Positions 40,841 to 60,450 of a DNA stretch of 64,000 nt are shown piece by piece. This stretch comes from Demequina sp. NBRC 110056 (GTDB lineage Bacteria; Actinomycetota; Actinomycetes; Actinomycetales; Demequinaceae). The notes below the pieces were generated by a model that saw only the letters and a list, made by a program, of their open reading frames with translations, was not told where the DNA came from and made no database searches. The stretch covers positions 186,001-250,000 of the forward strand of contig NZ_BBRM01000005.1 in NCBI RefSeq assembly GCF_002090155.1. Direction: 5' to 3'. The position numbers and the translations under genes are program-made. The first letter of the stretch is position 1, and each line of letters begins with the position of its first letter.

Positions 40841-42841
40841 ATGGCGTTCCCAGGTGAGCTGTCCGTCGGTCGCATCCCCGTCGTGGGCGTAGGGCCATCG
40901 CTCGAGGAGGGTCGCTGGGCGGCCCGCGCGGTGGTGGGCGAGGCGGTCCCCATCTGGGCCACGATCTTCCGCGAGGGCCACGACGCGGAGGGCGCCACCG
41001 TGGTGGTGACGCGCCCCGACGGCAAGCACGACGTGCTCCCGATGCCCTGCAAGGACTGGGGCAACTCGCTCTACGAGGCCATCTACATCCCCAAGCTCGA
41101 AGGCCAGCACACGTTCCGCGTCGAGGCGTGGTCGGACCCCTACGGGACCTGGGCGCACGCCGCCGAGGTCAAGGTCAAGGCGGGCGTGGACGTCCAGCTC
41201 ATGCTCGACGAGGGGGTCACGGTACTGCGCCGCGCCGTCAAGGCGGTGCGACGCAAGGCGGCCCGCAAGGAACTGCTCGAGGACGCGATCGCCGCGCTGC
41301 AGGACACCGACCTCACCCCCGAAGCCCGTCTCGCCCCGGCGATCTCGACCGCGGTCCGCGACGAGCTCACCGAGCGTCCCCTGCGGGAGTGGGTGAGCCC
41401 GTCGCGCGAGTATCCGCTGCTCATCCAGCGCGAGAAGGCCCTGGTATCGGCGTGGTACGAGATCTTCCCACGGTCGGAGGGCGCGCGCTTCAACAAGCGC
41501 ACCGGCGAGTGGCGGCCCGGCACCTTCACCACCGCCTCCAAGCGTCTGCCCGAGATCGCCGCGATGGGCTTCGACGTCGTCTACCTCACGCCCATCCACC
41601 CCATCGGCCTCACCCACCGCAAGGGCCGCAACAACTCGCTGAAGGCCGAGGCGGGCGACCCCGGCAGCCCGTACGCGATCGGCGGCGCCGACGGCGGCCA
41701 CGACGCGATCCACCCCGAGCTCGGCACGCTCCGCCAGTTCAAGAACTTCGTGGGGCACGCACGCGACGAAGGCCTCGAGGTCGCGCTCGACATCGCGCTC
41801 CAGTGCTCCCCCGACCACCCGTGGGTGACCGAGCACCCCGAGTGGTTCACGCAGCGCGCGGACGGCACGATCGCGTACGCGGAGAATCCTCCCAAGAAGT
41901 ACCAGGACATCTACCCGCTCAACTTCGACAACGATCCCGAGGGCATCTACCAAGCCATCCGCGACATGCTGCAGGTGTGGATCGATGCCGGCGTGACGCT
42001 GTTCCGTGTCGACAACCCGCACACCAAGCCGCTCACCTTCTGGGAGCGGCTGCTCGCGGACGTGGCGCGCACGCACCCGGATGTGATCTTCCTCGCCGAG
42101 GCCTTCACGCGGCCCGCGATGATGCACACCCTCGCGCGCATCGGCTTCCACCAGTCGTACACATACTTCACGTGGCGCCAGAACGCCAAGGAGATGGCGG
42201 AGTACCTCGAGGAGCTCGCGGGCGAGTCCTCGTACTACATGCGCCCCAACTTCTGGCCCACCACGCACGACATCCTCACGCCCGACGTCCAGGCCGGCGG
42301 GGCTCCCCTGCACCAGGCGCGGGCGGTCATGGCGGCCACCGGGTCGCCCTCGTACGGGATCTACACCGGGTACGAGCTGGTCGAGAGCGTCCCGCGCCCC
42401 GGCGTCGAGGAGCACATCGACAACGAGAAGTACGAGTACAAGCAGCGCGACTGGACCCGCGCCGCCGAGCTCGGAGTCAAGGATGTGCTCGAGCGCCTCA
42501 ACGCCGCACGCGCTCGCCACGTGGCGCTGAGGCGCCTGCGAGGCCTGACGGTGCACCGGAGCTCGAACCCCAAGATCCTGTGCTTCTCCCGCCACGTGCC
42601 GGCCGAGGAGTCGCCGACGGGCCGCGCCGACACCGTGATCGTCGCGGTCAGCTTCGACCCCCACGTCGTGCACGACGCGATCATCACGCTCGACATGGAG
42701 GCGATCGGCCTGGCGGACGACGCCCGTCTGGTCGTCGACGACGCGCTCACGGACGCGACGTACACGTGGGGCAAGGAGTTCTACGTGCGCTTCGATCCCG
42801 CCGTGACCATGGCTCACGTGGCGGGCGTGCGGGCGCTGTGA
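40841..42841 (+). CDS. glgE: Alpha-1,4-glucan:maltose-1-phosphate maltosyltransferase GlgE
   Basis: GlgE (GH13_3) transfers maltosyl units from maltose-1-phosphate onto alpha-1,4-glucan in the cytoplasm. The 666-residue protein has the N-terminal helical and beta domains, then VYLTPIHPIGLTHRKGRNNS, NPPKKYQDIYPLNFD, the nucleophile Asp in LFRVDNPHTKP and the acid/base Glu in FLAEAFTRP, all diagnostic. It is followed after 206 bases by glgB, the enzyme that branches its product. The genes making maltose-1-phosphate (TreS/maltokinase or GlgM) are not in the window. Confidence 0.96.
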   Translation: MAFPGELSVGRIPVVGVGPSLEEGRWAARAVVGEAVPIWATIFREGHDAEGATVVVTRPDGKHDVLPMPCKDWGNSLYEAIYIPKLEGQHTFRVEAWSDPYGTWAHAAEVKVKAGVDVQLMLDEGVTVLRRAVKAVRRKAARKELLEDAIAALQDTDLTPEARLAPAISTAVRDELTERPLREWVSPSREYPLLIQREKALVSAWYEIFPRSEGARFNKRTGEWRPGTFTTASKRLPEIAAMGFDVVYLTPIHPIGLTHRKGRNNSLKAEAGDPGSPYAIGGADGGHDAIHPELGTLRQFKNFVGHARDEGLEVALDIALQCSPDHPWVTEHPEWFTQRADGTIAYAENPPKKYQDIYPLNFDNDPEGIYQAIRDMLQVWIDAGVTLFRVDNPHTKPLTFWERLLADVARTHPDVIFLAEAFTRPAMMHTLARIGFHQSYTYFTWRQNAKEMAEYLEELAGESSYYMRPNFWPTTHDILTPDVQAGGAPLHQARAVMAATGSPSYGIYTGYELVESVPRPGVEEHIDNEKYEYKQRDWTRAAELGVKDVLERLNAARARHVALRRLRGLTVHRSSNPKILCFSRHVPAEESPTGRADTVIVAVSFDPHVVHDAIITLDMEAIGLADDARLVVDDALTDATYTWGKEFYVRFDPAVTMAHVAGVRAL

Positions 42842-42860
42842 GGGGCCGCAGAGGAACCAG

Positions 42861-42886
42861 GAGCGCCGATGCGCGGGCTGGTTCCC
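42861..42886 (+). repeat. GCCGATGCGC-hairpin element after glgE
   Basis: GCGCCGATGCGCGGGCTGG then TTCCCGC. The segment matches 57036-57060 at all but one of 24 positions from GCCGATG onward, and its GCGGG/CCCGC ends pair as a small hairpin. Confidence 0.6.
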
Positions 42887-43047
42887 GCGTCCGTCCCGGA
42901 CACGCCGCTGAGCACCTCGGGACTCCCGGGTGGACTGTGACCGTGCACCGCACGCTAGGGTCGGAGAATACGACGTCCTATGGCGCGCTCGACCGATCGG
43001 ATTCGGCCGCGCACGCGCCATCCGGCCCGACAGGCAGGCGGTGAACG

Positions 43048-45216
43048 GTGGCACCCAGGGAGTTCGACGCGAGCGTCCTCGCGGACGTGGCGGCGGGAAC
43101 GCACCACGAGCCCCACGCGGTCCTCGGACCGCACGTCGAGGCCGGCGCGGTCACCGTCCGGGTCCTGCGGCCGATGGCCGCGGCCGTCAGCATCGAGACC
43201 CTCGAGGGGACCTTCGACGCCGAGCACGAGCACGCGGGCATCTGGCGCGCGATCGTTCCCGGCGACGAGGCGCCCGACTACCGCGTCCACGTCACCTACG
43301 AGGGCGACGCGCAGGTGCAGGACGACCCCTACCGCTTCCTTCCCTCGCTCGGCGAGCTCGACCTTCACCTGATCCGTGAGGGCCGCCACGAGAAGCTGTG
43401 GGAGGCGCTCGGCGCGAACGTGAGGCACTACCCGTCGGTGCTGGGCGACGTCACGGGCACCGCGTTCGCCGTCTGGGCGCCCAACGCCCGCGCGGTCCGC
43501 GTGGTCGGCGACTTCAACCACTGGCAGGGCGCCACGCACGCGATGCGGTCGCTGGGCTCGTCCGGCGTGTGGGAGCTGTTCGTTCCCGGGGTCGGCGATG
43601 GCTCCGCGTACAAGTTCGAGATCCTCGGCAAGGACGGCCACTGGAAGCAGAAGGCCGACCCGATGGCGCGCCGCACCGAGGTCCCGCCGCAGACGGCGTC
43701 GATCGTCACCGAGACCGCCTACGAGTGGCGCGACGGCGAGTGGATGACGCGCCGCGAGAGCGCCGAGCCGCACCGCTCCCCCATGTCCGTCTACGAGGTT
43801 CACCTGGGCTCGTGGAAGCAGGGCCTGTCCTACCGCGAGCTCGCGAAGGAGCTCGTCGCGTACGTGACCGAGCTGGGCTTCACCCACGTCGAGCTCATGC
43901 CCGTCATGGAGCACCCCTTCGGCGGTTCGTGGGGCTACCAGGTGACCTCGTACTACGCGCCTACCTCGCGCTTCGGCTCCCCCGACGACCTGCGGTACCT
44001 CATCGACGAGCTGCACCAGGCCGGCATCGGGGTCCTGCTCGACTGGGTGCCGGGCCACTTCCCCAAGGACGAGTGGGCGCTCGGACGCTTCGACGGCACG
44101 CCGCTGTACGAGCACCCGGACCCGCTGCGCGGCGAGCAGCCGGACTGGGGCACGTTCATCTTCGACTTCGGTCGCCGAGAGGTGCGCAACTTCCTGGTCG
44201 CCAACGCGGTCTACTGGCTCAAGGAGTTCCACGCTGACGGCCTGCGCGTCGACGCCGTCGCGTCGATGCTCTACCTCGACTATTCGCGTCAGGCGGGCCA
44301 GTGGCGCCCCAACATCCACGGCGGCCGCGAGAACCTCGACGCGATCGCGTTCCTCCAGGAGGCCAACGCCACGGCGTACCGCAACTGCCCCGGCATCGTC
44401 ATGGTCGCCGAGGAGTCGACCGCGTGGCCTGGAGTCACGGCTCCGACCAACGGCGGCGGGCTCGGCTTCGGGCTCAAGTGGAACATGGGCTGGATGAACG
44501 ACACCCTGCGCTACCTGGGCGAGGAGCCCGTCAACCGCTCCCACCACCACCACACGGTGACGTTCTCGCTGATGTACGCCTTCTCTGAGCAGTTCATCCT
44601 GCCCCTCAGCCACGACGAGGTGGTCCACGGCAAGGGCTCGCTGCTGAGCCGCATGCCGGGCGATCACTGGCAGCAGGTGGCCGGCGTCCGCGCGCTCCTC
44701 GCGTACCAGTGGACGCACCCCGGCAAGCAGCTGTTGTTCATGGGCGGCGAGATCGGCCAGGAGGCCGAGTGGTCCGAGGGTCGCTCGCTCGACTGGTGGC
44801 ACCTCGACGACTCGCTCCACGCGGGTCTCAAGGACATGGTCCGCGACCTGAACGCGCTGTACACGGCGACCCCCGCGCTGTGGGAGCGCGACGCGGACCC
44901 GCAGGGCTTCACCTGGATCGACGCCGAGGACTCGGCGCGCAACGTGCTGAGCTTCCTGCGCTGGGACAGCCAGGGCGAGGCCGTGGCTGTCGCCATCAAC
45001 TTCGCGGGCGTGCCCCACGAGGGCTACCGCCTCGCGCTTCCCTCGGGCGGCGCGTGGGACGAGGTGCTCAACACGGACGCGCACGCCTACGGCGGATCCG
45101 GCGTCGGCAACCTCGGCCAGGTCCAGGCGACCAAGCGCGCGGAGGGCCCGTGGGACTTCAGCGCTCAGGTGCGCCTTCCGCCGCTCGGCGCCGTGGTCTT
45201 CCGCCAGCACCGCTGA
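43048..45216 (+). CDS. glgB: 1,4-alpha-glucan branching enzyme GlgB
   Basis: GlgB makes alpha-1,6 branches in glycogen-like glucan. The 722-residue protein has an N-terminal extra domain and CBM48 (about 1-220), then GH13 motifs [26 protein letters not shown] (nucleophile Asp), [13 protein letters not shown] (acid/base Glu) and [12 protein letters not shown]. Length is that of actinobacterial GlgB. It starts at GTG 43048 with a weak AGGCGG site. It works with glgE directly upstream. A half-copy of the galactan operator core (ACTGTGACCG) lies at 42934-42943. Confidence 0.95.
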
Positions 45217-45387: not shown

Positions 45388-46317
45388 CTAGAAGAGCGCC
45401 GAGGCCAGCGACTGGCGCGCCTGCGCCACGCGCGGGTCTGCCGGGCCCACGACTTCGAAGAGCTCGACGAGGCGCGTGCGGATGCGCTCGCGGTCGTCGC
45501 CGAAGGTGCGCCGCACGAGGTCGATGAGCCGCCCGAAGGCGTCCTCGACCTGGCCGCCCATGATGTCCATGTCCGCGACGGCGAGCTGGGCGTCGACGTC
45601 GTCCGGGTTGTCCGCCGCGGCACGCCGCACCGCGTCGAGGTCGGCCAGTCGCGAGCGCTCCATGAGGCTCACCTGCGCGCGGCCGGCACGGGCATCGGCG
45701 TCCTTGGGGTTCTCGCGCAGCGCGCGGTCGTACGCGTCGATCGCCGCGGCGTAGTCCTCGCGCTCGATCGCGTCGTACGCCTCCTGGTGCAGCGGCGGCA
45801 GCGGCTCGGGCTCGGGCTCCCCCGCCGCATCCTGGGGCGCGGCGTCGACGCGGCCCGTCACGCCGTTCTGACGGGCGACCTCGAGCACCTGGTCCAGCAC
45901 GCCCGCGATCTGCTCGTCGTCGGCGTTGCCCTGGAACAGCGGCGCGGGGCGTGCGGCGATCAGCGCCATCACCGTCGGCACCGCGTTGACCTGGAACGCC
46001 TGCGCGATGCCGCCCTGGACGTCGATGTCGCACGTGCCGAGCAGGAACTGGCCGTCGTAGCGGGCGATGATCGTCCGCATCCTCTCGACGAGCTCCTTGG
46101 ACGCCGGAGAGGCGCTCGACAGGAACACGATGAGGATGGGCACCTGGGTCGACTGCTGCGCCAGCTCCTGCAGCGACTGCTCGGTCACCTGGACAGGTGC
46201 GGGCAGGGCCGATGCGGGTGCCGCCTCCGCGGCCTCGCTCGGCTGGGGCTGCCCGCCGAGGAGCTGGGAAAGGTCCACGGAGCCACGCAGGGGCGCCTCG
46301 GGGTTCTCGCTGGTCAT
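45388..46317 (-). CDS. YbbN/CnoX-like thioredoxin-TPR protein without CXXC
   Basis: A 309-residue cytoplasmic protein with a low-complexity start, a thioredoxin fold (about 45-150; VPILIVFLSSASPASKELVERM, GIAQAFQVNAVPTVMALIAARPAP) and a TPR-like helical C-terminus (about 175-309). This is the build of YbbN/CnoX co-chaperones that hand proteins to folding machines. The usual CXXC is replaced by a Ser-Ala-Ser-Pro stretch, so it cannot do disulfide exchange and probably works as a binding protein. Third gene of the operon starting at 48332, 6 bases after the lipoprotein gene. Confidence 0.85.
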   Translation of the reverse strand: MTSENPEAPLRGSVDLSQLLGGQPQPSEAAEAAPASALPAPVQVTEQSLQELAQQSTQVPILIVFLSSASPASKELVERMRTIIARYDGQFLLGTCDIDVQGGIAQAFQVNAVPTVMALIAARPAPLFQGNADDEQIAGVLDQVLEVARQNGVTGRVDAAPQDAAGEPEPEPLPPLHQEAYDAIEREDYAAAIDAYDRALRENPKDADARAGRAQVSLMERSRLADLDAVRRAAADNPDDVDAQLAVADMDIMGGQVEDAFGRLIDLVRRTFGDDRERIRTRLVELFEVVGPADPRVAQARQSLASALF

Positions 46318-46323
46318 GCTCGC

Positions 46324-47310
46324 CTAACTGTCGGAGACCTTGATCAGGTTGTGCTCGGCCGCGACCACGCCAGGGAGGGCGTCGCCGTCGGCGGCGGGCA
46401 CGTGGATGACGATGAAGTCGCGGTAGGTGTGGGTCACGGCATCGTCGAGCTCGCCGTCCAGGAGGGGCTCGTCCTCGTCCGCGATCGACACCGTGGCGCC
46501 CTCGACGGTGAACGACGAGGTGATCGACAGCGGCGCGAACACGAGCGCTCCTCCGTCGGCCGTCGCCATCGCGAAGGAGGCGTCCAAGTCCGGCTGGACC
46601 TTCTCGACGTAGTCGCCGTCCGCCTCGTTGGCCGCGTCGACGTACGTCTCCCGCGCGGCGAAGAGTCGCTCGCGGTAGGTGTCCGGCGCGAAGGCGTCGT
46701 TGAGGTCGGAACCCTCGCCGGCGAGCAGCAGCTCGACGTACTGCTCGATCGCCTCCTGAGCCGTGGGCGTGATCGAGGAGTCCTCGAGCCCGAGCTGCGC
46801 GGCTCCCGTGGACGGACCCGGCATCGCCGGCAGCGTCGCGCCGGGGATCATGTGCGCCCACTCGCGCAGCTGGTAGTCGTCGTCGATGCCCTCCTGCACC
46901 CACAGCATCACGATGGGGGTGTCGTCGTCGGAGGGCTGCACGGACACGGTCGCCATGGTGCGCGGCCAGGTGTCGGCGGCCGACACGTAGACGGCCTGCA
47001 TCTCGTCCGGCAGGACGGTGGGCGCGGGTCCGTCGTCGGCGTTCGCGAGCGTGTACTCGGCGCCGCGGATGGTGATGACGTCGCCACCCACGCGGTCCGT
47101 CATGAGGCCCGTGTCGCGCTCGTCGTCGGCCGCGCCGAGCTCCGCCATGGTCTCATCGATGATGCGCGAGCTCTGGGCATCGAGCAGCGAGCCCGAGGCC
47201 TCGAGCGGCGGCGCGGAGGTCACGGGTGCGGGGACGTCGGCGACGCAGCCCGCGAGGGCGAGCGCGGCGACGCCGGTGACGCCGGCGACGCGGAGGATCC
47301 GGTGGCTCAT
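46324..47310 (-). CDS. Predicted lipoprotein of unknown function
   Basis: A 328-residue exported protein with lipobox ALALAGC (Cys 22) and an Ala/Pro/Ser linker. The rest is a soluble, acidic domain with no family I recognise; it has several extended hydrophobic strands in the C-terminal half (ALVFAPLSITSSFTV, RDFIVIHVPAADG). Its ATG overlaps the stop of the upstream membrane-protein gene (ATGA), so the two are made together and probably act together at the cell surface. Confidence 0.75.
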   Translation of the reverse strand: MSHRILRVAGVTGVAALALAGCVADVPAPVTSAPPLEASGSLLDAQSSRIIDETMAELGAADDERDTGLMTDRVGGDVITIRGAEYTLANADDGPAPTVLPDEMQAVYVSAADTWPRTMATVSVQPSDDDTPIVMLWVQEGIDDDYQLREWAHMIPGATLPAMPGPSTGAAQLGLEDSSITPTAQEAIEQYVELLLAGEGSDLNDAFAPDTYRERLFAARETYVDAANEADGDYVEKVQPDLDASFAMATADGGALVFAPLSITSSFTVEGATVSIADEDEPLLDGELDDAVTHTYRDFIVIHVPAADGDALPGVVAAEHNLIKVSDS

Positions 47311-48332
47311 GAGCGCTCCTCCTCTCCGTCGGGTCCGGGGTGGTCGTCGGCATCGGCGTCCGTGTTCGCGGCGTCCTCCGTCGAGGACACCGACGACGCC
47401 GAGGGAGCCGAACTCGATGGAGCCGACGCAGCGGCCACGGAGGCAGCGGACGCGGCGGTCGCCGCGCGACGCGGCGAGGACTCGGCGCTCGGCGCGGGGG
47501 CGGAGTCCTCATCCTCGAGGGTGGCCTCGGGAAGGTGCTCACCGGCGGCGCGGCGCGCGCGCCGGCTGCCCGGAGTGGGCTCGTCGTCCTCGCCGACGCG
47601 CTGACGGTCGGCGATCCACTTCTCGCCCTTCGCCTGCGCGGGCCTGAGGTCGATGAAGCGCAGCACGAGCGCGATCACGCCAACGGCGGTGAGGAACGCG
47701 CCCCACCAGATGAGCGGCGTGATCCAGCCGTCCTGGACGTCGCGGGTGAGCGCAAGGTCCGCGGACGTCAGCGGCGTCCCGTCCTGGCTCACGACCACGA
47801 GCACCTCGCCGGCCGGAACCTCGGACGCGACGATCGAGAGCCGGCCCGAGCCTCGCCAGTCCTGGCGCCAGTGGTCCTGCGAGCCCTCGGCGAGCAGGTC
47901 GACCGGCTCCGCCTCCTCGGCGGACTCCCCCTCCGACGCGGAAGGAGACGGGGACGGCTCCGGCTCGCTGGGCGAGGCGGACGCCGACGGCGACACGGTC
48001 GGGCTGGGCGACGGCGCCGGCTCGGCGACGTCGGTCGACAGGGTCTCCCAGTCGGGCACGCCCGTCACATAGGTCGCGTCGTGCTCGGCCAGCCAGGCCT
48101 CAGCGTCCGCGGGACGCGCGGTGAGGCCGACGATGGCGCCGTCTCCGGAGAAGCCGATGCGGTTGTCGGCGGCGAAGGCGATCATCTCGGGCTCGTACAC
48201 CACCACGGCGGTGTCGACGCTCGCGGTCGGCGTCACGTCGCGGGGCGGGCGCTGAGCGTCGGCGATGAGGCCGGCGGCGAGCAGCAGCACGCCGATCACC
48301 CCTGCGACCAGCGCAGTCGTCCTTAGGCTCAC
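47307..48332 (-). CDS. Membrane protein of unknown function, Ser/Pro-rich and Ala/Ser-rich segments
   Basis: A 341-residue protein with an N-terminal helix (about 7-25), an external part (to about 205) holding a Pro-Ser repeat linker (about 105-135), a second helix (WWGAFLTAVGVIALVLRFI) and a cytoplasmic tail rich in Ala, Ser and acidic residues. The two helices put the N-terminal domain outside. It starts at GTG 48332 behind GGAGGAAAC. First gene of a three-gene operon with a lipoprotein and a YbbN/CnoX-like protein. No family recognised. Confidence 0.75.
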   Translation of the reverse strand: MSLRTTALVAGVIGVLLLAAGLIADAQRPPRDVTPTASVDTAVVVYEPEMIAFAADNRIGFSGDGAIVGLTARPADAEAWLAEHDATYVTGVPDWETLSTDVAEPAPSPSPTVSPSASASPSEPEPSPSPSASEGESAEEAEPVDLLAEGSQDHWRQDWRGSGRLSIVASEVPAGEVLVVVSQDGTPLTSADLALTRDVQDGWITPLIWWGAFLTAVGVIALVLRFIDLRPAQAKGEKWIADRQRVGEDDEPTPGSRRARRAAGEHLPEATLEDEDSAPAPSAESSPRRAATAASAASVAAASAPSSSAPSASSVSSTEDAANTDADADDHPGPDGEEERS

Positions 48333-48471: not shown

Positions 48472-51231
48472 ATGCCCGAAGAGACCCTCCCGTTTCCAGT
48501 AGCGATGCGGGGCTACGACCGCGAGGCGGTCGCCGCCCACGTCGCTCAGCTGGAGGACGCGCTGCGCGCGTCGAAGGCCGCGGCGCAGCGCGCCGAGGAG
48601 GAGTCCACGCAGGTGCGCGGCAAGCTCGACGAGGCGCAGAAGACCCTGCGCGAGGCCGAGCAGCCCACGTACAAGGGCCTGGGTGCCCGCGTCGAGCAGC
48701 TGCTGCGCTCCGCCGAGGAGCAGTCCTCCGACGTCGTCCAGCGCGCGAACACGCACGCCCAGGACACGGTGGCGCGCGCCAACGTGGCCGCCCAGCAGCT
48801 GCGTGCGCGCGCGGACAACGAGGTCGCCGAGATCCTCGCCCAGAGCCGCCGCGAGGCCGACGAGATCCGCACCGCTGCCGAGTCCGACGCGGGCAGCGCA
48901 CGCGAGTCGGCGCAGCGCCAGGCGACCGAGATCGTCGAGCGGGCGCGCCGCGACGCGCAGCGCGAGGCCGGAGCGATCGAGGCCTCGGCGACGGAGCTCC
49001 GCGCGAACGCCGAGCGCGAGGCGCACACGACCCGCGCGGTCGCCGAGCGCGAGACCACCGAGATGCGCGTGGCCGCCCAGCGCGAGGCGACCGAGCTGAC
49101 GGAGAAGGCGCGTGATGAGGCCGAGGCCGCCGTCGCCGCCGCTCGCGAGCAGGCCGAGCAGATCGGCGCAGAGGCGGACCAGGCGCTCGCCGCGGCCCGT
49201 GAGGAGGCCAAGGGCATCCTCGCGGAGGCGGGCGAGGCGCGCTCCGCCGCGGACGCCGAGGCGTCCGATGTGCGATCGACCGCCGAGGCGGACGCCGCCA
49301 ACCTCCGCAACGAGGCGCAGACGTTCCTGACCCAGGCGAACCGCGACGCCGAGGCGCTGCGCGCCGAGGCCGCGACCGAGGCCCGCGACGTGCGCGCGGC
49401 TGCCGAGCGCGAGGCGCAGGCCCTGCGCACCGAGACGGACGAGTACGACGAGCTCACCCGCGGCGACGCCGAGCAGTACGCCGCGGCCACCACCCGCGAG
49501 GCGGACGACTACGCCACCGCCGAGCGCTCCGCCGCCGACGAGTACCGCGCGTCCACCGAGGACGCCGGACGCGCGGCCGCGGCTGCGCTCGTCGCCGAGG
49601 CGGAGGCCGCTGCCGCAGCGCTGCGCGCGTCCGCCGACGCGTACGACCGCGACACGCGTGCCACCGCGGACTCCGAGACGTCCGAGCTGCGAGCGCAGAC
49701 GGATGACTACGACGCTTCCACCCGAGCAGCGGCCGACGACTACGCGGCGACGACGCGCGCCGAGGCCGACGACTACGCGGCGACCACCCGCGCCGCGGCG
49801 GACGAGTACGACACCGCCACGCGCACCGCGGCCGACGAGTACCACCGCGCGACCCGCGCCTCGGCCGACTCGTACGACCAGGCCACCCGTACGGGTGCGG
49901 ACGAGCACCTCGCCCGCATCCGCATGGAGGCGAACGAGCTCAACCGCACGGTCCGCGCCGAGGCCGACGAGATCGCCGCCTCGGTGCGCGCGGCCGCCGA
50001 CGACTACGACGCCACCACCCGCGCGGACGCCGACGCCCACGACGAGGCCACGCGCGCATCGGCCGCGTCCCACCTGGCGGAGGTGCAGGCGCAGGCCGCC
50101 GCGCACCTCGCCGAGGTCCAGGGTCAGGCGGACGACTACGACGCGACCACCCGCGCCGCGGCGGACGAGTACGACACCGCCACGCGCGCCGGAGCGGACG
50201 ACTACGACGCTCAGACCCGCAAGGCCGCCGAGGACCACGACGCCGCCGTGCGCGCCGAGGTGGGCGCCTTCGACGCTCAGACCCGCAAGGCCGCCGAGGA
50301 GTTCGCCGGCGCGACCCGCACCGCCGGCGAGAGCTACGCGCGTGGGGTGCGCAAGGACGCCGACGCGTACGACGCGAACACCCGCCGCGGTGCCGACGAG
50401 CACGCGGAGACCACCAAGCGGGAGGCCGACGACCACGCCGCCCGCGTGCGCCGCGAGGCCGAGGACTTCGACGCGCATCAGCGCAACGAGACGGCCGCCT
50501 ACGTCGAGACCACCCGACGCGAGGCCGACACCTACGCGACGCAGACCCGCGAGGGCGCGGACCGTGACGCCGCGCGCGCCGCACAGGCGGCCGAGGACGC
50601 CGCCGAGCAGCGGCTGTCCGACGCGCAGCAGGAGGCGAAGGCCATCCTCGCCGCCGCGCGCAAGGAGGCGGAGGCCGAGCGCACCGCCGCCCACGAGGAC
50701 GCCGAGGCGGCGACCGAGGAGGCCCGCCGCACCCGCGAGGACCTGCAGGTGGAGATCGCGCAGAAGCGCGAGGCCGCCGAGCAGGAGCTCAGCCAGCGCC
50801 ACGAGGAGGCCCAGGCCGAGTCCGCCGAGATGGTCGCCGACGCCCGCAAGCGCGCCGACGAGGCGGAGGAGCGGCTGTCCGCCGCCCTCGAGCGCGCGGA
50901 GACCGTGCGCCGGGAGGCGGAGACGCATTCGCAGACGCTGCTGTCCAACGCCCGCAACAACGCGGACGAGATCGTCACCGGCGCGCGCGAGCACGCCGAG
51001 TCGATCATCTCGGAGGCCGTGTCCGACGCCGAGCGCGAGCGCACCAACGCCGCGCGCGAGGTCGAGGACCTGCACCAGCAGCGCGAGTCGATCACGGGCT
51101 ACCTGGACGACCTGCGCGGTCTGCTCGGCACCGACCCGGTCGCCGGCCTGCAGCGCGCAGCCGGCATGGCGCCGGCGTCGCCCGCCTCGGCGCAGTCCGC
51201 GCCGTCGGCGGAGCCCGCAGAGAAGCGCTGA
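48472..51231 (+). CDS. Giant coiled-coil protein with DivIVA-like N-terminus and 11-residue repeats (Scy-like)
   Basis: A 919-residue, almost wholly helical protein. The first 35 residues (FPVAMRGYDREAVAAHVAQLEDAL) resemble the membrane-curvature-sensing DivIVA domain. Residues about 320-700 are built of 11-residue units of the form AD(D/E)Y-x-x-x-T-R-A-x, for instance ADDYAATTRAE then ADDYAATTRAA, giving long right-leaning coiled coil. The C-terminus (ITGYLDDLRGLLGTDPVAGL) is a short non-repeat cap. Actinobacterial Scy/FilP proteins of similar design organise polar growth; a matching role here is inferred. AAAGGAGA precedes ATG 48472. A small gene starts 28 bases after its stop. Confidence 0.85.
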   Translation: MPEETLPFPVAMRGYDREAVAAHVAQLEDALRASKAAAQRAEEESTQVRGKLDEAQKTLREAEQPTYKGLGARVEQLLRSAEEQSSDVVQRANTHAQDTVARANVAAQQLRARADNEVAEILAQSRREADEIRTAAESDAGSARESAQRQATEIVERARRDAQREAGAIEASATELRANAEREAHTTRAVAERETTEMRVAAQREATELTEKARDEAEAAVAAAREQAEQIGAEADQALAAAREEAKGILAEAGEARSAADAEASDVRSTAEADAANLRNEAQTFLTQANRDAEALRAEAATEARDVRAAAEREAQALRTETDEYDELTRGDAEQYAAATTREADDYATAERSAADEYRASTEDAGRAAAAALVAEAEAAAAALRASADAYDRDTRATADSETSELRAQTDDYDASTRAAADDYAATTRAEADDYAATTRAAADEYDTATRTAADEYHRATRASADSYDQATRTGADEHLARIRMEANELNRTVRAEADEIAASVRAAADDYDATTRADADAHDEATRASAASHLAEVQAQAAAHLAEVQGQADDYDATTRAAADEYDTATRAGADDYDAQTRKAAEDHDAAVRAEVGAFDAQTRKAAEEFAGATRTAGESYARGVRKDADAYDANTRRGADEHAETTKREADDHAARVRREAEDFDAHQRNETAAYVETTRREADTYATQTREGADRDAARAAQAAEDAAEQRLSDAQQEAKAILAAARKEAEAERTAAHEDAEAATEEARRTREDLQVEIAQKREAAEQELSQRHEEAQAESAEMVADARKRADEAEERLSAALERAETVRREAETHSQTLLSNARNNADEIVTGAREHAESIISEAVSDAERERTNAAREVEDLHQQRESITGYLDDLRGLLGTDPVAGLQRAAGMAPASPASAQSAPSAEPAEKR

Positions 51232-51259
51232 CCGCCTCCTTCGCGAGCACCACGGCACC

Positions 51260-51679
51260 ATGACCACCGACGAGCCCGAGGTCTCCCCTCACCTGCGTCG
51301 CGCGAACGCCCTGGAGCGTCAGCGCCAGGCGGAGAGCCGTCAGGCCGCGGAGCTGGTGCGCCAGTTCGCGGCCGATGCGGTCGCGGCGGGCATCGAGCCC
51401 GTGCGCTTCACGGCCCGGCCGTACGGCGGCGGGTCGCGCTACCGGACCGGCGTCGAGGGCTGGTACCTCAAGCGGGACCAGTCCGTCGGGGTGGGCACGG
51501 ACGGGCACTTCTACGTGATGTCGGTCGCGCCGAGCCTCATGGCCCGCGTCACGGGGGCGCACCTCGAGCCAGCCGAGCCGCCGCTCGAGCTCGGCAAGGG
51601 AGGCCGCGACGGCGAGTCGATGCCCATGGCCGAGGCGCTCGCGAAGCGGCTCGCGGGCGGCAACGCCTGGGGACGCTAG
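51260..51679 (+). CDS. Conserved hypothetical protein
   Basis: A 139-residue soluble protein: a charged N-terminal helix (LRRANALERQRQAESRQAAE), then a beta-rich part with RFTARPYGGGSRYRTGVEGWY and TDGHFYVMSV. I do not recognise the family. It follows the coiled-coil gene by 28 bases in the same direction and may be a partner. There is no clear ribosome site ahead of ATG 51260. Confidence 0.65.
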   Translation: MTTDEPEVSPHLRRANALERQRQAESRQAAELVRQFAADAVAAGIEPVRFTARPYGGGSRYRTGVEGWYLKRDQSVGVGTDGHFYVMSVAPSLMARVTGAHLEPAEPPLELGKGGRDGESMPMAEALAKRLAGGNAWGR

Positions 51680-51739: not shown

Positions 51740-51803
51740 TCGCGACCAGGTCCGTTCGCGACCAGGTCCGTGCGCGACCAGGTCCGTGCGCGACCGGCTC
51801 GAT
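51740..51803. repeat. 16-base tandem repeat
   Basis: Three near-identical units (T/G)CGCGACCAGGTCCGT at 51740-51755, 51756-51771 and 51772-51787, and a decayed fourth (GCGCGACCGGCTCGAT) to 51803, with a further CACGACCGGCTAG trace. It lies in the 205-base gap between convergent genes ending at 51679 and 51885. Confidence 0.8.

Positions 51804-58030: not shown

Positions 58031-60450
<2,420 letters not shown>

Follow-up and report, generated by a model that had tools for sequence, protein, structure and literature searches.

A FilP-family protein with an unusually long 11-residue-repeat rod in Demequina, and its conserved small neighbour gene

Introduction

Which family does a giant coiled-coil protein built of 11-residue repeats belong to in the actinobacterium Demequina sp. 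NBRC 110056, and does the small gene that follows it have anything to do with it? We addressed this question in a window of 64,000 nucleotides (contig NZ_BBRM01000005.1, positions 186,001 to 250,000), which is the whole stretch of DNA analysed here. An earlier note on this DNA had described the protein as Scy-like, with a DivIVA-like head, had found such a protein noteworthy in a non-filamentous member of the Micrococcales, and had proposed the following 139-residue gene as its partner. Our analysis places the Demequina protein in the known FilP family, of which it is a member with an unusually long 11-residue-repeat rod.

Results

The filP homologue (48472-51231, + strand) encodes 919 amino acids that sequence, profile and periodicity analyses divide into a DivIVA-like head, a second FilP motif, a long hendecad rod and a conserved tail. 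It starts with ATG, with AAAGGAGA a few bases 5' of this codon. It is a real gene, to judge by its codon-position GC (0.80/0.54/0.95) and by its conservation: with the head as query, it was found in 46 of the 47 Demequinaceae genomes. The gene is single-copy in nearly all of these genomes, and full-length matches within the family are 62-91% identical; the closest named locus is that of Demequina sp. NBRC 110053 (head 92% identical), and about 25 of the best-matching loci are from Demequina or Demequinaceae. A search for a sigma-70-like promoter or a terminator found neither. Upstream of the filP block lie glgE and then glgB (40841-45216, +), and the genes divergent from filP (45388-48332, -) encode a TPR/thioredoxin-like protein, an SCO2278-like lipoprotein and a 341-aa protein without a name. 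The lipoprotein family is found near filP in nine of the compared loci, the window included. Farther downstream, 58031-59560 (-) and its neighbours are ATP synthase alpha/beta-type subunit genes, of the V/A type by their Pfam C-terminal domain.

The head (residues about 7-64; 48490-48663, +) consists of the FPVAMRGYDREAV motif and a first short coiled coil, and was recognised by alignment, PF05103, a GpsB profile match and periodicity. Residues F8, R13, G14, Y15 and V20 are invariant in an alignment of 17 diverse homologues, and residues 21-64 have a hydrophobic period of 3.48, that of a short heptad coiled coil. The GYDxxEVD motif of the DivIVA-like superfamily is present and reads GYDREAVA, the residue after the motif's V being A in Demequina, where most of the other homologues have D or E. 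PF05103 matched the excised head at E = 4.9e-5, under its gathering cut-off, and TIGR03544 matched the protein at E = 8.9e-4, just under cut-off. A profile of the 17 homologues matched the solved GpsB structure 4ug3 in the PDB at E = 1e-5, aligned on the RGY motif, which bears out the DivIVA-like head proposed earlier; weaker matches of the same profile were Wag31 6lfa (E = 0.14) and DivIVA 2wuj (E = 0.16). The monomer AlphaFold model of the head has long helices and low pTM (0.38), with a helix break at residues 64-66, and a Foldseek search with this model returned no neighbouring chain; the low pTM and the Foldseek outcome speak against a FilP-type filament protein. The second helix starts with PTYKGLGARVEQLLRSAEEQ (residues about 65-89; 48664-48738, +), the other hallmark motif of FilP, recognised by alignment, FilP match and AlphaFold and near-invariant in an alignment with 16 homologues.

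Three loci of the same genome match TIGR03544: the filP homologue, a distinct DivIVA/Wag31 gene that exceeds the Pfam cut-off (G000 C2:741884-742048; L001, L175) and a gene for a 194-aa PolyDIV-type protein with three DivIVA-like domains (G000 C2:854.6-855.0 kb; L176), which sits between rlmN-like and dxr-like genes, both named by eye. DivIVA/Wag31, PolyDIV-like and FilP-type genes together form the expected set (PMC9858780). DivIVA/Wag31 and GpsB share with the Demequina protein the RGYD-x3-V motif and, after it, a short coiled coil of heptads, but DivIVA is a separate gene here, and the Demequina FilP has a far longer rod and the second FilP motif. PolyDIV belongs to the same DivIVA-like superfamily (PMC9858780), but has several head domains per chain and, in this genome, its own 194-aa gene.

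To tell FilP from Scy, we compared the protein with both, using four genomes of a single genus (f35 g110) in which the two genes are adjacent; the genus was taken as Streptomyces from this gene pair and is called Streptomyces-type here. The head matches Streptomyces-type FilP from end to end (35-38% identity, E 4e-12 to 5e-11), the second motif does so with 50% identity over 34 residues (E = 6e-9), and the tail matches FilP residues 228-284 (E 1e-6 to 1.5e-5). Against Scy, the head gave a fragment match with E 1.6e-4 at best, the tail matched at about 3e-4 at non-corresponding rod positions, and PTYKGLGARVEQLLRSAEEQ had no significant match in the Scy proteins of the four genomes. The distal part of the rod and the tail (residues about 750-890; 50719-51141, +) are conserved, end in QRESITGYLDDLRGLLGTDPVAG, were recognised by colinearity and the FilP match, and are colinear in Demequinaceae, Flavimobilis and other order relatives; a conserved C-terminal segment is thus present, by a standard drawn from the homologues compared here and not from publications. 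Scy starts immediately before RGYD (PMC9858780), whereas 12 residues precede RGYD in the Demequina protein and align to FilP. The end-to-end match of the head to FilP, the FilP match of the tail, the weak Scy fragments and these 12 residues identify a FilP-family protein. More than 80 residues are in coiled coil, as judged by periodicity, and there is no other known functional domain, with only sub-threshold helical Pfam matches; signal and membrane segments were judged absent by composition.

The centre of the rod is an array of 35 contiguous hendecads (residues 321-705; 49432-50586, +), read by autocorrelation and in blocks, with A at core position a, Y/H/F at d, D/A at e and T/V at h, and a consensus of about A-[DE]-[DE]-Y-D-A-x-T-R-A-x over 35 unbroken blocks. 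Identity autocorrelation over residues 321-700 peaks at lags 11, 22, 33, 44 and 55 only (z = 12.9-15.9 vs shuffles), so that this coiled-coil periodicity analysis agrees with the earlier note, which had seen a giant 11-residue-repeat protein in this frame with hendecads of the AD(D/E)Y-x-x-x-TR type at about 320-700. Of the 31 aromatic and His residues in the array, 29 occupy a single column of the 11, position d, against a maximum of 13 in 20,000 shuffles. The flanking residues 65-320 and 700-890 have a weaker 11/18-residue periodicity, with lags of 11, 18, 22, 29 and 40 that correspond to a mixture of heptads and hendecads like that of FilP and Scy. An aromatic core is not universal, since the hendecads of one lineage of Demequina (L069) are based on Leu, and the hendecad period is therefore better conserved than the core residue. 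Because a core of Ala, Tyr, Asp and Thr is weakly hydrophobic, the stability of a two-stranded coiled coil is uncertain. Recent minisatellite expansion was rejected as the origin of the array, as its 33-bp DNA repeats are just 71-82% alike. For the FilP-Scy class, coiled coils of hendecads and of 51-residue repeats, including hendecads in FilP and Scy rods, were reportedly described by Walshaw in 2010; the Demequina array differs in being unbroken and aromatic at position d.

FilP measures 311-317 aa in the Streptomyces-type genomes, 364-725 aa in the other sampled order relatives, 513 aa in the sole other genus of Demequinaceae that was read and 788-1182 aa in Demequina. Both ends of the window protein are colinear with the 513-aa relative, which has no such array, and an insertion lies at roughly residues 238-696 of the Demequina protein; Demequina orthologues carry this inserted arm of about 460 residues. 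Most differences in rod length among these orthologues are of 11, 22 or 33 residues, or else of 4, 7, 15, 18 or 29. In an all-pairs comparison, whose counts are of non-independent events, 554 of 1212 interior rod indels were multiples of 11 and a further 453 were of 11n+4 or 11n+7, and the same steps are visible when the window protein is set against each orthologue. Such steps are near-whole helical turns and keep the coiled-coil register, a sign that selection maintains an uninterrupted coiled coil while constraining its length only loosely. With a coiled-coil rise of 0.1485 nm per residue, the 385-residue array would measure about 57 nm. Whole FilP rods measure 37 nm and form filaments that repeat every 60 nm (PMC6599971), so a much longer filament repeat is predicted for Demequina.

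The small gene (139 aa; 51260-51679, +) is the one named in the earlier note; it begins 28 bp after the filP homologue and was characterised as an open reading frame and by conservation, alignment and AlphaFold. Its codon-position GC is of coding type (0.76/0.55/0.94), and it belongs to a conserved family without a name that has 14 invariant columns among 22 members, including GWY, FY, G-x-G and DG. AlphaFold predicts with confidence (pLDDT 92.8, pTM 0.82) a long N-terminal helix (10-42), then a small beta domain and, at the C terminus, a further helix. Searches of Pfam, NCBIfam and PHROGs gave no credible match, the family profile gave chance matches only against PDB sequences, and the model had no credible match by Foldseek/VIA among PDB and viral models; the VIA rows cover the N-terminal helix only, so that the beta domain was barely probed by VIA. 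One genome of another family (G186, f17) has two copies (C1:1773252-1773605 and C1:320357-320710). Just 3' of the small gene in the window, at 51740-51800, there are short GC-rich direct repeats (about cgcgaccaggtccgt).

Discussion

Taken together, it is highly probable that the gene is the Demequina orthologue of FilP, or its closest paralogue, and that it encodes a filament protein of head, rod and tail. It has in common with FilP (SCO5396 family; Bagchi 2008, PMC2680258) the two N-terminal hallmark motifs, a segmented coiled-coil rod, a conserved tail, single copy and an actinobacterial host, and that family has as its hallmark a pair of motifs bordering the first two coiled coils (PMC2680258). 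The Demequina protein differs from FilP in its length and in about 460 extra residues that include 35 mostly aromatic hendecads, and its gene is followed by the small gene, whereas the FilP gene adjoins scy. The family features, the hendecads, the insertion, the step-wise change of length and the conserved gene pair are established at the level of sequence.

Counting copies downstream on the same strand and within 6 kb in the order sample, we found the small gene adjoining filP in 72 of 78 genomes with both, spread over five family groups: Demequinaceae (23/23), f13 (23/23), f9, which includes Flavimobilis (16/22), f3 (9/9) and f12 (1/1). Some f3 and f13 genomes have at least one gene in between. 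It is possible that the small gene and FilP are functionally unconnected and that the adjacency is inherited synteny, a reading to which we give slightly less than an even chance. The surrounding block of lipoprotein and hydrolases is partly kept as well, four families have the small gene unlinked from filP (f14, f15, f18 and f20; 0/16), and in a profile test 8 of 8 f11 genomes had it without a detectable FilP head. However, in the five linked groups it follows filP in the same orientation, and the two genes often overlap or have almost no gap between them, and the unlinked copies had no other common neighbourhood beyond close relatives. Adjacency is thus conserved and dependence is not. The earlier proposal of a partner stands insofar as the gene is a conserved neighbour of filP; the small gene is also present where filP is not detected, and on the basis of gene adjacency the chances that the small protein is a FilP partner appear roughly even.

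A second alternative concerns the rod, whose hendecads could form an amphipathic membrane- or lipid-binding helix in the manner of the 11-mers of apolipoproteins or synucleins, and not a coiled coil. An 11/3 periodicity fits such helices, and the Pfam Apolipoprotein model matches at E = 5.9e-11, but scores 42.9 bits where the cut-off is 90, for which reason an apolipoprotein-type assignment was rejected. In addition, the array has a net charge of -44 over 385 residues and a weakly hydrophobic face, charged residues occupy 1 of 70 core positions a and h, and the framework around the array is that of FilP, with relatives that are coiled coils. We consider lipid binding of this kind unlikely and prefer a coiled-coil rod.

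Finally, that the gene is an orthologue of Scy, a giant hendecad growth-pole organiser recruiting DivIVA, FilP and ParA, is very improbable and was rejected on the head and tail comparison, since Scy, although similarly giant, acidic and hendecad-rich (1244-1293 aa in Streptomyces-type genomes; lag-11 identity 0.25-0.27) and matched by the rod over repeats in one genome (blastp E = 3e-7), begins at RGY without the preceding segment, lacks the PSYxGLG motif and the aromatic array, coexists with FilP next door and is placed in Streptomycetales only (PMC9858780). Scy exceeds 1000 residues that are almost all hendecads, compared with 919 aa and a long hendecad rod here and with 788-1182 aa among the Demequina orthologues. 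The scy gene adjoins filP (PMC4255298), whereas this genome has one FilP-type head, a second FilP-like gene was not found in it, and the neighbours belong to other families. The general FilP/Scy design seen by the earlier note holds, with FilP motifs and tail, and its choice of Scy does not; the likeness to Scy is correct for length only and not by descent.

For this FilP-family protein, homology suggests how a filament might be built. The head, together with the first heptads, would probably form parallel dimers, and it would either dock on polar DivIVA/Wag31 or link to other heads end to end. The hendecad coiled coil would act as a long, stiff rod, lengthened in Demequina through the insertion of about 460 residues, and the conserved tail could join rods into filaments, by tail-to-tail and head-to-head contacts as for FilP (PMC6599971). 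The filament may also touch polar DivIVA and help to maintain cell shape (PMC11571769, PMC2680258, PMC4255298). In Streptomyces, FilP is found at tips and has DivIVA as an interaction partner (PMC11571769). The small gene is probably co-transcribed with filP, and its product may modify or use the filament. FilP-family proteins with differing rod layouts, including a Janibacter member, form filaments in vitro (PMC2680258), but none of those assayed has an aromatic hendecad arm as long as that of Demequina. A bolder and rather doubtful proposal combines both genes: the aromatic-core arm, expected to be slightly right-handed, would be evolutionarily tunable in length, and the small protein would be an undescribed partner of FilP filaments, joined to filP in an operon in several Micrococcales families and used elsewhere without FilP. 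A limited literature search found no report of the lengthened register-preserving arm or of the conserved neighbour gene, and no experiment on the protein in Demequina.

The occurrence of FilP in a non-filamentous genus is in itself expected, since the family is known from Janibacter, Tropheryma, bifidobacteria and others (PMC2680258, PMC4255298) and orthologues are reported to be widespread (PMC4255298). In summary, FilP, mostly studied in filamentous Streptomyces, is placed here in a simple non-filamentous genus. Beside filP, several Micrococcales families keep an uncharacterised gene whose product has a confident predicted fold with no PDB match found, a candidate partner. The natural series of FilP lengths, from 513 to 1182 aa within one family, could serve to test the effect of rod length.
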